From Colwellia sp. TT2012 (lineage in GTDB: Bacteria > Pseudomonadota > Gammaproteobacteria > Enterobacterales > Alteromonadaceae): a DNA stretch of 64,000 bases. The stretch is from the NCBI RefSeq assembly GCF_001440345.1, contig NZ_LJYX01000016.1, positions 124,001 through 188,000 on the forward strand, written 5' to 3'. The notes under the pieces were generated by a model, which was given only the letters and a program-made list of their open reading frames with translations, was not told the origin of the DNA and made no database searches. Below, in pieces: positions 19,026 through 38,956 of this stretch; position 1 is the stretch's first letter, and every line of letters begins with the position of its first letter. The position numbers were made by a program, and so were the translations under genes.

Positions 19026-19842
19026 TCAAGGGGTCAGAACCCTTGATTTTTTTGTTTATACACTGAAGATTTTCGATCACCGCCATGGCTATCAGAAATA
19101 ACTTTTCTTCCTAATAAGTTTTCAAGTTCAACAATGAACTTTTTATTACCAAGCGCTTGTGATTTATGTGCCGATAAACGCAACTCAGTAAGAACTTTTA
19201 ATGGAATTGTATTTTCAAATAGTGATTTGTAATTTTTTTGTCTTTCTAAATTCGTTTTTCCCAACATCATGAAGCATTGGTGGTGTGTTATTAGTTCATC
19301 AAAATATCCTAATGCATTAGTACGATAACTCGACCAATCATAGTTTTCTGGTTTTTCAACCATATTAGCCCTCACTGGGTTTAACTCGAGGTAACGACTA
19401 ACAATCAAGAAATAATTTTCACTGTCAATCAATGAAGATTTGAAACGCCCTTCTCACAAGGTGCCGCTTCGCTTATAACTTTTGTTAAAATAACGTACAT
19501 AACTTCTACCAAGGGACTGCATTAACAGACTTACTGAAAACTTTTCTTCTGGTGAAAGCAATAAATGGACATGGTTATTCATCAGCACATAAGCATGAAT
19601 TTTGACTATATTCTTGCAGTTTGTTCAAGTAATATTGCCTATCCCTGTCTAATAAAAAACAAGCATTTCGATTATTACCACGTTGTATCACATGCTGTGG
19701 AATATTTGCTAAATTAAGGCGGGGTAATCTAGGCATAGTGTAAGTCCATTTACGTGATGATAATTTAAACTTAGCGTGTATTTAATTAATTACTATGTAC
19801 TTGGCTAGTAAGTAAATTAAATTAACAGTTCTGACCCCTTGA
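19026..19842. mobile_element. decayed RAYT (REP-associated tyrosine transposase) element with 15-bp inverted ends
   Basis: The two ends carry the same 15-bp sequence in inverted orientation: TCAAGGGGTCAGAAC at 19026-19040 and its complement at 19828-19842. Between them lies a single broken transposase gene of the IS200/IS605-related Y1 family. The left end also folds as TCAAGGG-GTCAGAA-CCCTTGA (19026-19046), the REP-like palindrome expected for RAYT systems. The GGGGTCAG motif is a known flank of this transposase type in gammaproteobacteria. No target duplication could be made out by eye. Confidence 0.72.
19034..19736 (-). pseudogene. REP-associated tyrosine transposase (Y1_Tnp), frameshifted and interrupted
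   Basis: The gene starts MPRLPRLNLANIPQHVIQRG at 19736 (complement), typical of TnpA-REP proteins (IPQHVIQRGNNR). About codon 48 the frame is lost (stop near 19590); the next frame continues KIHAYVLMNNHVHLLLSP, holding the HUH motif (HVH). A TGA then replaces the conserved Trp in SGTLWEGRFKSS (near 19455). The third part, 19034-19432, runs SENYFLIVSRYLELNPVRA to the natural stop and is complete. The catalytic Tyr region (YLELNPVRA) is present. With one frameshift and one nonsense codon the transposase is almost surely inactive. Confidence 0.82.
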
Positions 19843-20208: not shown

Positions 20209-21786
20209 TCAGTATGAGTTAAATACCTGCTGATAATACTGTTCGAATAGGACAGAGTCCTGCATTGCCACTCCTTTTCGTAAGTTTTTTTTGAATATGT
20301 CTTTACCATAAAGCCCTGTTAAATAATGGTTTAATTGCCCAATAAAATCGTTATTGGCAGGGGTTTTGTTACACATTATATGACCTACGGCGTAAGCAGA
20401 AGATGCTGCCAAAGGCGCATTGCTAAATTGCACTTTATCATCTGTTTGACTTAAAAAGTTATTGGCTATGTTTGGATATTCAATAAGGTAGTCAAATTTA
20501 CCCTGTACCAATAATTGCAACATGCTATCTTCACGCAAGGCCTTTTCGGTGGTATATCGACTACTTTCAGGTAGGTGGGAAATTTGTTGGTCCAGTGCCT
20601 TGCCATAAGAGCGCGCTTTGACCAGTCCTAGGCGTTTACCCGGTTGTTGTGCCATAAATGCAGTTAAGAAAATAGGCTCCTCTGTTTTGTTATTATGTTT
20701 TGCCACATAATACAGCCTTTGCCCTAATGAAAAAGTATATGGCTGGCTAAACAGGTACTTACCTACCCTTTCTGGGGTTTTTAACTGCTCCCCCATACAA
20801 ACATTGTAATTTTGTTCCAAAAGCATTGAGGCTTGGTCCAAGGATATTACATGGGCTTCAATGTCATAGTTATTCAGTTGAGAAAACAACAGCTTGCGGC
20901 TCTGTAGCTCGCTAGACAAATATTTATAATCAATTTGACCTATATAAGATTTAGCATTATCAACCAACCAGATTATTTTGGGCTTTTTTACATCTACTGT
21001 AGCCAGTATGCTTCTATCATATAGGTCACCAAATATGCGCTGTAACTCACCACTTTCTCTTAGTTTAGCCATACCTAAATCCAATTGCTTGGCTAGCTGC
21101 TCCCCCTTTGGCGAGTTTTGAAATGCAGCATAAATTCGTTTAGCTGGCGCAATTTCAAAACTCGTCAAATTTTTTGGTCGAGTACCAGGTAACATATAAT
21201 CGTAATCAATAAAGGCATCAATCCTGTTGCCCTGTAATAATTTCATACCCAGTTCAAAGTTGTCCACTGGGTAGTGCTGTAAATGCTCACCAATAAAGCG
21301 ATTAATATTGTAGCCATCAACCCAAGCAAGTTGTAAATTTTTGAGTTGCCATTTTTTGCTCAGATGCACACGATTTTTGTTATAAAAAGCTAACAAGGGG
21401 GCTTCCATATCCAGGTGCCACCGAGGAAGTACAGCATGCTCAACATCTTCACGATAAACCCCAAGAATGATGTCGACATCACTGTCTGCGAAGCTACGTA
21501 ATGCACGGTTATACGGTAAGACATCGAATTGCAAGGGATATTCCCCGTATAGTGCACGCATCAGGTTCCAGTAAATACCGGTGCCGTCAACTTCACTGTA
21601 ACCTTGCCATTCGCCGCTGACGACACGCAATGACTCATTTGCAAACGTAGTGCTAATACATGAGCATGTCAGTATCAATAAGAGTATTAATTTTTTAAGA
21701 AAACTACTCACGGATACACTCAAAATGGCATGCAACTTGACTAAGGAAGGTTTTATCTGAAAAGTTTTGATTTGGAAAAATGGCAT
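20209..21786 (-). CDS. periplasmic solute-binding-like protein with two SBP_bac_3-type domains
   Basis: A 525-residue exported protein. The signal peptide (about residues 30-49) has the core KKLILLLILTCSCISTTFA. Two bilobed periplasmic-binding domains follow: about 50-258 (LRVVSGEWQGYSEVDGTG; RALRSFADSDVDIILGV) and about 260-515 (KIIWLVDNAKSYIG; KFDYLIEYPNIAN; GKDIFKKNLRKG). No permease or ATPase gene lies nearby, so it may sense or bind a ligand without forming a classical ABC importer. The ATG at 21786 has AGGGAG about 8 nt upstream, which supports the start despite the long N-terminus. A c-di-GMP-I riboswitch precedes it. The ligand is unknown. Confidence 0.8.
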   Translation of the reverse strand: MPFFQIKTFQIKPSLVKLHAILSVSVSSFLKKLILLLILTCSCISTTFANESLRVVSGEWQGYSEVDGTGIYWNLMRALYGEYPLQFDVLPYNRALRSFADSDVDIILGVYREDVEHAVLPRWHLDMEAPLLAFYNKNRVHLSKKWQLKNLQLAWVDGYNINRFIGEHLQHYPVDNFELGMKLLQGNRIDAFIDYDYMLPGTRPKNLTSFEIAPAKRIYAAFQNSPKGEQLAKQLDLGMAKLRESGELQRIFGDLYDRSILATVDVKKPKIIWLVDNAKSYIGQIDYKYLSSELQSRKLLFSQLNNYDIEAHVISLDQASMLLEQNYNVCMGEQLKTPERVGKYLFSQPYTFSLGQRLYYVAKHNNKTEEPIFLTAFMAQQPGKRLGLVKARSYGKALDQQISHLPESSRYTTEKALREDSMLQLLVQGKFDYLIEYPNIANNFLSQTDDKVQFSNAPLAASSAYAVGHIMCNKTPANNDFIGQLNHYLTGLYGKDIFKKNLRKGVAMQDSVLFEQYYQQVFNSY

Positions 21787-21837
21787 TTATTACACTCCCT
21801 AAAAACATCTAAAATTCAGGGCGCAATAATGTTAAGA

Positions 21838-21950
21838 CAAAAATCAATCATTCCGTTCGATGAAGCCCCGCTGTCATAAGTATTAACCCACAGACCGGTT
21901 GCTTTGCGTGCGTAGACTTTCGTCAATGCTTGCCCTGAAGAACTAGGCAT
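21838..21950 (-). ncRNA. c-di-GMP-I (GEMM-I) riboswitch
   Basis: On the minus strand the leader holds the conserved GEMM-I blocks in order: AGGGCAAGC (near 21936), a GNRA tetraloop hairpin GAC-GAAA-GTC (near 21915), CACGCAAAGC (near 21900), ACCGGTCTG (near 21892), and AGCGGGGCTTC (near 21865). The order and spacing follow the Vibrio Vc2 aptamer (CAGGGCAAACC, CGAAAG, GACGCAAAGCC, CCGGCC, AGCGGGG). It lies about 50-160 nt before the start of the solute-binding protein gene on the same strand. GEMM-I RNAs bind cyclic di-GMP and usually control surface, motility or extracellular-binding genes. The exact 5' and 3' ends are approximate. Confidence 0.8.
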
Positions 21951-22545
21951 ATCTTATAGTTAATTGTTATACATGCAACATAAATATCAACTGATACAAA
22001 GCAAATAACAACCATATTGTTGGTAATTCATACTAATTATTAGCTAAGCTTGTACTATATCAGCAATATTTCTTAAAAAATATCTGTGCTTTTTTGCAAG
22101 TTTTAACTTTTTCCTGTGTTATTCCTATACTGGGTAATGGAAGATTATTTGATGACCATTTTATCCGCATGAATTTGAGGGTTGCTAATGAGCGCAGTGT
22201 GGCAAAAGTGAATATTAGATTGTCTTAATTGAGTTTCCCCCAAAATCACATACTATAAAACCAAGTTTGAGCAATGCAACTTACCATGCCATTTATTGAA
22301 ATCAACTCAAAGTTCGACTGTCAAATTTTAAAACTAATCAAAGTCTAGTTTCATCAAATCGTTTATGATTTGTTATTAAAGGAGTTATAGGAACGATTGA
22401 AATGGGTATGCGCACTGTTGTATCTCTACAACAATTATAGTGTGTCCACGAAAACGGGCTAAGACAACAGAAAAGTCATTACAGCTTATTCATTAAATAA
22501 CTATATTTGTATCAAAACAGTAGATTATGAGATTGTTTTTTACAG
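21951..22545. other. gene-free AT-rich stretch upstream of the riboswitch
   Basis: No gene is recognised. The promoter for the riboswitch transcript should lie in 21951-22050. A 20-codon reading frame at 22286-22348 (starts MPFIEINSKF) is too short and unsupported. The stretch looks like decayed sequence with scattered stops. Confidence 0.4.
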
Positions 22546-36034: not shown

Positions 36035-36124
36035 TGGCGGAGAGCATGAGATTCGAACTCACGGAAGGGATAAACCTTCACTCGCTTTCCAAGCGAGCGC
36101 CTTAAACCACTCAGCCAACTCTCC
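36035..36124 (-). tRNA. tRNA-Ser (anticodon GGA)
   Basis: A 90-nt type II tRNA with encoded CCA. Acceptor GGAGAGT pairs with the 3' strand ending CTCTCCG-CCA; the anticodon arm is CGCTTGGAAAGCG (anticodon GGA); a long variable arm and a T-loop GTTCGAATC follow. It is read on the minus strand and followed by a strong terminator. Confidence 0.95.
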
Positions 36125-38093: not shown

Positions 38094-38169
38094 TGGTCGG
38101 CCGTGAAGGATTTGAACCTTCGACAAATTGGTTAAAAGCCAACTGCTCTACCAGCTGAGCTAACGGCCG
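38094..38169 (-). tRNA. tRNA-Lys (anticodon TTT), copy 6 in transcription order
   Basis: 76 nt with encoded CCA. Acceptor CGGCCGT pairs with ACGGCCG; anticodon loop CTTTTAA; T-loop TTCAAATC. It is the last intact copy before the truncated ones. Confidence 0.97.
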
Positions 38170-38204
38170 TGCCTAATTGTGAGTAAACGATAAATAGTCT
38201 TGAA

Positions 38205-38280
38205 TGGTCGGCCGTGAAGGATTTGAACCTTCGACAAATTGGTTAAAAGCCAACTGCTCTACCAGCTGAGCTAACGGCCG
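38205..38280 (-). tRNA. tRNA-Lys (anticodon TTT), copy 5
   Basis: Same 76-nt sequence and fold as the neighbouring copies, with encoded CCA. A 35-nt spacer separates it from copy 6. Confidence 0.97.
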
Positions 38281-38390
38281 ATTCAAGTTTCTACTTTACA
38301 TTTACTTGCTCCACTACCTATGACGATAAGGAGACTTTTTATTCAAACTCAACTTAACAACTTTTAAAGTCATTACTTTGAATTAGAAAG

Positions 38391-38466
38391 TGGTCGGCCG
38401 TGAAGGATTTGAACCTTCGACAAATTGGTTAAAAGCCAACTGCTCTACCAGCTGAGCTAACGGCCG
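38391..38466 (-). tRNA. tRNA-Lys (anticodon TTT), copy 4
   Basis: Same sequence and fold. The 110-nt spacer to copy 5 closely resembles the spacers on the other long intervals, showing duplication of tRNA plus spacer. Confidence 0.97.
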
Positions 38467-38579
38467 AGTCAAATTTTCTATTTTACAATTTACTTGCTCC
38501 ACTACCTATTTACGATAAGGAGACTTTTTATTCAAACTCAACTTAACAACTTATAAAGTCATTACTTTGAATTAGAAAG

Positions 38580-38655
38580 TGGTCGGCCGTGAAGGATTTG
38601 AACCTTCGACAAATTGGTTAAAAGCCAACTGCTCTACCAGCTGAGCTAACGGCCG
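38580..38655 (-). tRNA. tRNA-Lys (anticodon TTT), copy 3
   Basis: Same sequence and fold with encoded CCA; preceded by a short 36-nt spacer matching the one between copies 5 and 6. Confidence 0.97.
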
Positions 38656-38691
38656 TGTCTAATTGTGAGTAAACGATAAATAGTCTTGAAT

Positions 38692-38767
38692 TGGTCGGCC
38701 GTGAAGGATTTGAACCTTCGACAAATTGGTTAAAAGCCAACTGCTCTACCAGCTGAGCTAACGGCCG
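38692..38767 (-). tRNA. tRNA-Lys (anticodon TTT), copy 2
   Basis: Same sequence and fold with encoded CCA; separated from copy 1 by a 113-nt spacer. Confidence 0.97.
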
Positions 38768-38880
38768 ATTCAAGTTTTCTATTTTACAATCTACTTGCTC
38801 CACTACCTATTTACGATAGGGAGACTTTTTATTCAAACTCAGCTTAACAACTTATAAAGTCATTACATTGAATTAGAAAG

Positions 38881-38956
38881 TGGTCGGCCGTGAAGGATTT
38901 GAACCTTCGACAAATTGGTTAAAAGCCAACTGCTCTACCAGCTGAGCTAACGGCCG
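38881..38956 (-). tRNA. tRNA-Lys (anticodon TTT), copy 1
   Basis: First copy after the promoter. Same sequence and fold as the other five, with encoded CCA. Confidence 0.97.

Follow-up and report, generated by a model that had tools for sequence, protein, structure and literature searches.

Does the c-di-GMP-I riboswitch aptamer found in a leader of Colwellia sp. TT2012 control the gene behind it, which encodes an orphan protein with two periplasmic binding domains, and if so, does c-di-GMP raise or lower the synthesis of this protein? We addressed this question in the window, i.e. the whole 64 000-nucleotide stretch of DNA analysed here. The best overall explanation, which holds about half of our confidence, is a c-di-GMP-I riboswitch exerting translational OFF control over a lineage-specific orphan tandem-binding-protein gene. 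RNA and protein are each of known kinds; their combination is real, is seen in one genome and is mechanistically plausible. If the coupling works, an orphan tandem binding protein joins the targets of c-di-GMP riboswitches, and the locus illustrates how a riboswitch can be coupled to a gene specific to one lineage; if it fails, the locus shows that aptamers can survive as relics in variable regions.

The aptamer and its ligand contacts

A covariance-model scan of the whole window (cmscan) returned one riboswitch, a GEMM-I (c-di-GMP-I) aptamer at 21858-21944 on the minus strand. The match spans the complete RF01051 model (positions 1-87) and scores 43.1 bits (E 4.1e-5), over the gathering threshold of 35 bits that serves as the criterion of family membership; a repeat on 901 bases of the leader found RF01051 again (E 5.7e-7). 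The original prediction of a c-di-GMP-I riboswitch on this strand is thus borne out, and its interval of 21838-21950 contains the aptamer, although it is slightly wide. Among the four GEMM-I RNAs of the genome (78, 75.9, 60.2 and 43.1 bits), the window copy scores lowest. We aligned 107 distinct GEMM-I aptamers, obtained from 120 loci of the genus and family; the window aptamer retains 33 of the 36 columns that are conserved in at least 90% of them, and 94 of the 107 miss two of these columns at most.

Residues G20, A47 and C92 of the Vibrio cholerae Vc2 riboswitch touch c-di-GMP, and C36-G90 is the interhelical pair of Vc1, as given in passages of PMC4744006; by our own count, the latter pair corresponds to C44-G83 in Vc2 numbering. 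We mapped the Vc2-equivalent positions from the Rfam alignment and found all of them retained on the minus strand, namely the contacts G20 (21934), A47 (21905) and C92 (21862) and the C44-G83 pair (21908 and 21871). The A47 equivalent follows the G20 equivalent by 29 nt rather than 27 nt because P2 is longer. A table in PMC11352751 gives GEMM-Ib and G20A GEMM-I RNAs as cAMP-GMP sensors, so that a G at this position is consistent with c-di-GMP as the ligand. The window RNA shares its aptamer fold (by covariance model), its contact residues and its place in a leader with Vc2 and Vc1, and c-di-GMP binding is predicted for it. In contrast to both, the window RNA precedes another kind of target gene, its P2 is two nucleotides longer and mismatched, and its tetraloop receptor is a variant. 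Of the P2 tetraloop-receptor pairing, whose lack in homologous leaders the original prediction had named as counting against it, one half is seen in the window copy: the GAAA tetraloop is present at 21918-21921, whereas the P3 receptor region (21875-21893) carries CUGUG (21889-21893) with UAUG (21875-21878) instead of the CUAAG of most relatives. The receptor column concerned is A in 98% of the 107 aligned aptamers and G in the window copy.

The window RNA is a genuine, slightly degenerate c-di-GMP-I riboswitch of known kind, and we are nearly certain that it is a real aptamer. From its sequence it is expected to bind c-di-GMP, perhaps more weakly than usual. The lowest score in the genome, the receptor variant and the mismatched P2 would also suit a relic, i.e. 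an aptamer stranded in a variable stretch after its old gene had been lost or replaced, which binds weakly and leaves the new gene uncontrolled. We consider such a history possible although the less probable course; the retention of every ligand-contact residue and of 33 conserved columns argues against it.

The tandem binding protein and its possible role

The next ORF on the aptamer strand runs from an ATG at 21786 to 20209 and encodes 525 amino acids. The aptamer ends 71 nt upstream on the same strand, and so does lie in the leader of a double-domain protein gene as originally proposed. An AlphaFold2 model of the protein (22 sequences; pLDDT 82.5, pTM 0.69) contains two SBP folds, at residues ∼49-263 and 268-525, in agreement with the two solute-binding domains claimed at the outset. 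Pfam SBP_bac_3 (PF00497) exceeds its cut-off in the C-terminal half only (29.5 versus 26.4 bits) and is matched at E 0.01 by 14 of the 22 aligned members; PF00497 membership is thus assigned by profile for the second domain and by structure for both. The N-terminal hydrophobic helix suggests that the protein is exported. No output domain was found: a Pfam scan at E up to 1 gave SBP_bac_3 and one sub-threshold match, and no GGDEF. A hand alignment puts Arg340 at the carboxylate-binding arginine, and all 22 aligned sequences have it; in domain 1 this arginine seems to be missing, since the same kind of alignment puts E116 there. The protein also matches the TIGR02285 family, through its second domain and at 53.7 bits, below the cut-off of 143.3; the model has 268 positions, roughly one domain. 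All 22 aligned members match it at E 0.01 or better (best 1.3e-25), and a literature search on TIGR02285 returned nothing.

The top Foldseek rows for the model are the GlnPQ SBD1-SBD2 tandem, BvgS, EvgS and, in fifth place, 5gzs, in whole-length matches that are loose (TM-score 0.30-0.34, rmsd 15-22). The last of these structures is CdgH of V. cholerae (PDB 5GZS), a diguanylate cyclase that has a tandem of two binding domains; according to PMC5431781, L-arginine is bound by the first. The tandem periplasmic binding domains are common to CdgH and the window protein; CdgH, however, is a diguanylate cyclase, whereas no GGDEF domain was detected in the window protein, and sequence identity is 12%. 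A second precedent for a binding protein that influences the c-di-GMP level is NspS-MbaA of V. cholerae, in which a periplasmic binding protein passes ligand information to the c-di-GMP level via its partner (PMC8967002). This system has another ligand and a partner enzyme, whereas no partner gene was seen beside the window gene. By analogy with these two systems, a ligand sensor for the lifestyle switch is a plausible role for the window protein.

The protein might instead capture nutrients for a remote transporter, with the riboswitch merely tuning uptake to lifestyle. The modelled folds lend this some weight, as binding proteins of transporters, and the GlnPQ tandem too, are among the close ones. 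The genome has seven matches to the ABC permease family PF00528, six of them over the cut-off, but none is on the contig of the window, so that the earlier statement that a transporter partner is missing holds for the neighbourhood. The four SBP_bac_3 proteins of the genome that we examined likewise speak against nutrient capture, since two also have an SLT domain, another a symporter domain and the fourth a GGDEF domain; we regard this role as improbable. The GGDEF protein (967 amino acids, with three SBP_bac_3 stretches; G000:C177:80113-81834) is encoded on the same contig outside the window, and hence the genome has such domains fused to a c-di-GMP enzyme. Homology between this protein and the window protein was considered and rejected (25.4 bits only).

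Leader pairings and the direction of control

We found a perfect 8-nt complement, newly described here, between the 5′ strand of the aptamer and a hairpin-forming segment of the leader. The aptamer partner, UUCAGGGC (21932-21939, minus strand), contains the G20 equivalent together with the first part of P2; the leader partner, GCCCUGAA (21815-21822, minus strand), can pair either with it or, by folding, with the Shine-Dalgarno region. The Shine-Dalgarno sequence as read by us is AGGGAG (21795-21800), 8 nt ahead of the ATG. The hairpin that covers it (21787-21829) adjoins the start codon and pairs 21815-21821 with 21797-21803 and 21822-21829 with 21787-21794; the fold of 21784-21830 has −12.6 kcal/mol. 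This hairpin and the UUCAGGGC/GCCCUGAA pairing are mutually exclusive.

These two pairings suggest a translational switch. With c-di-GMP bound, the aptamer would keep its own 5′ strand, GCCCUGAA would be left free to form the hairpin over the Shine-Dalgarno sequence, and translation would drop; without ligand, GCCCUGAA would pair with the aptamer 5′ strand and free the ribosome site. On this model, cells would produce the protein chiefly when c-di-GMP is low, and it would act untethered, sensing or scavenging a ligand that resembles an amino acid. When the aptamer was forced in folding calculations, the Shine-Dalgarno hairpin had a probability of 0.86 and the alternative pairing of 0.00, in all 12 combinations of transcript ends, which argues for a translational OFF switch. 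Ligand-free folds shifted with the 3′ end of the transcript. With the end at 21780 the hairpin predominated (0.73-0.85, alternative pairing 0.02-0.16), with the end at 21760 the alternative pairing reached 0.51-0.94, and with the end at 21740 it reached 0.96-0.99 while the Shine-Dalgarno sequence paired elsewhere (unpaired 0.03-0.06). The mean unpaired fraction of the Shine-Dalgarno sequence was 0.03-0.36 ligand-free versus 0.33 with the aptamer forced; no ligand-free fold exposed it clearly more than the folds with a forced aptamer did.

The complementarity itself was gauged by shuffling. Of 20 000 dinucleotide shuffles of the leader, 254 contained a complement of at least 8 nt to the 20 initial nucleotides of the aptamer; with the whole aptamer allowed as partner, 244 of 4000 shuffles had an 8-nt complement. 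The test is unspecific, as 34 of 69 other leaders also fell below 0.05, each via an A-rich string. The start codon is uncertain too, because the homologue N-termini begin near residues 26-30 of the window protein. A GTG at residue 26 (21709-21711, minus strand) is nearer these starts and may be the true one, which would leave the hairpin ∼75 nt away. Given the shifting ligand-free folds, the shuffle rates, the unspecific complement test and the uncertain start, we infer the OFF direction with moderate confidence. No terminator-like site for intrinsic termination was present in 21700-22150, and a clear promoter was lacking (three sites versus 2.2 expected). According to PMC11477304, the class I c-di-GMP riboswitches in C. 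difficile are OFF switches that act by transcription, a precedent in favour of the OFF direction.

If the switch were ON, c-di-GMP would increase the production of the binding protein by attached cells, in the manner of Vc1 and gbpA. Vc1 is an ON switch for a surface-binding protein in the passages cited above (PMC4744006), and a subtilase that carries bacterial Ig domains and an LPMO resembling GbpA are among the representatives of the family's other GEMM-I targets. The nearest aptamers by blastn, L143 (80%) and L131 (76%), each over 71 nt, both precede exported lipoprotein-like ORFs, a large one in the case of the better match, L143. By global alignment the nearest aptamer is another, L319 (68 of 87 positions), with no downstream ORF called. 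The folds speak against the ON reading, as forcing the aptamer favoured the Shine-Dalgarno hairpin in 12 of 12 cases, and we think it unlikely. Folding does not settle the direction; it suggests a translational switch for which OFF at high c-di-GMP is more likely than ON, and to OFF we assign an even chance.

That the aptamer controls the gene at 20209-21786 in some way is probable in our judgement, and a gene free of effective control by the aptamer is correspondingly the weaker prospect. The ligand-free folds without a freed Shine-Dalgarno sequence are what a relic might give; the common strand, the distance of 71 nt to a start with a good Shine-Dalgarno sequence and the pairing that connects the aptamer with the ribosome site oppose it. 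A further extension of the OFF reading, which we rate as a long shot, is that the sensor shut off by the riboswitch is an untethered tandem-domain protein which in turn signals to a diguanylate cyclase or a phosphodiesterase. If true, this would be a recently assembled feedback loop, and at high c-di-GMP the cell would no longer respond to an amino-acid-like cue from outside.

Distribution of the RNA, the gene and their pairing

To place the locus among its relatives, we compared 249 GEMM-I loci, comprising all 90 matches of the genus (found in 38 of 39 genomes) and 159 of the family, with up to 2.5 kb downstream of each. The family loci were taken from the strongest matches among those listed, so that weak family copies are under-sampled except, in part, in 18 genomes. 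The 249 loci are distinct places, four pairs of which, from different genomes, are identical over 200 nt; in two loci the downstream sequence is shorter than 1200 nt. Profiles of either binding domain (E 0.1) detected no relative of the window protein near any of the other 248 loci. Conversely, none of the 22 checkable loci of two-domain homologues has a GEMM-I RNA beside the gene; a 23rd (L033) starts at a contig edge, where the upstream side is not checkable, and one of the 22 (L103) was counted via its genome, G451, whose one GEMM-I is on another contig. A search of 38 relatives' loci yielded no GEMM-I at the gathering threshold, at which weaker copies would be missed. Three further two-domain matches (in G286, G258 and G357) are far from every GEMM-I among the matches listed for their genomes. 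The closest approach seen, ∼6 kb on contig C9 of G160, was too distant for us to count. That relatives conserve the combination of RNA and gene, which the original prediction had named as a test, is therefore rejected for the loci examined: the pairing is seen here only, and comparative support for the switch is absent because it was found nowhere else. A literature search pairing c-di-GMP-I riboswitches with periplasmic binding proteins gave no paper; a solute-binding passage in PMC11477304 appears to belong to a T-box table.

The two-domain homologues are scattered in the family at ≤ 37% identity, and in a class sample of 369 genomes the window protein was matched at E 1e-30 in one, the source genome itself. 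Plasmid origin was considered and rejected, as the two records that tblastn returned each match a single domain (29.0 and 26.4% identity). The region that holds RNA and gene is bounded by ycaO and rimO; most of the genus retains these two genes, but the intervening sequence is variable. The genome closest by its flanking ycaO (G431, 94%) has neither the protein nor a GEMM-I on its ycaO/rimO contigs. A pairing found once, in a region that differs between genomes and contains transposase pieces, adds to the case for a relic. An older aptamer, or its relic, may have been joined to an incoming sensor gene.

The transposase-like pieces are three ORFs in different frames at 19034-19736 (minus strand), which resemble a REP-type transposase; the largest has no Pfam match, and the segment has two 96% matches on one contig of G431. 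Elsewhere in the window, there is a 57-bp element (22415-22471) to which five further genomes from the genus have matches (88-96% identity). Six tRNA genes with UUU anticodons and equal scores stand in a row at 38097-38956 (minus strand), identical in the five alignments compared, and another tRNA is at 36038-36124. Among the homologue loci, 11 of 23 (L017, L018, L021, L026, L031 and others) have, after the two-domain gene, a gene that falls into one common cluster; its member at L017 encodes a FUR-family regulator.

Other sense ORFs downstream of the 249 GEMM-I RNAs, in clusters each named from one representative, include those for DUF3718 (75 loci), GGDEF (24 loci) and OmpA/MotY-like (11 loci) proteins, subtilases (five), GbpA-like LPMOs (three) and chemotaxis receptors (three). 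The 24 GGDEF loci (L054, L208 and others; L208 was the representative tested) have the RNA before diguanylate cyclase genes on the same strand, which suggests feedback of c-di-GMP on its own synthesis. At 64 of the 249 loci, no sense ORF of 90 amino acids occurs within 450 nt. Antisense c-di-GMP riboswitches are a topic of PMC9943018, a passage of which cites a Colwellia gene. The 78-bit GEMM-I of the present genome (L001; G000:C156:202742-202824, plus strand) is flanked by genes for a TPR protein and a DUF885 protein, each encoded on the other strand, and its transcript would therefore enter the DUF885 gene in antisense; out-of-frame ORFs akin to those at this locus recur in other loci of the family.
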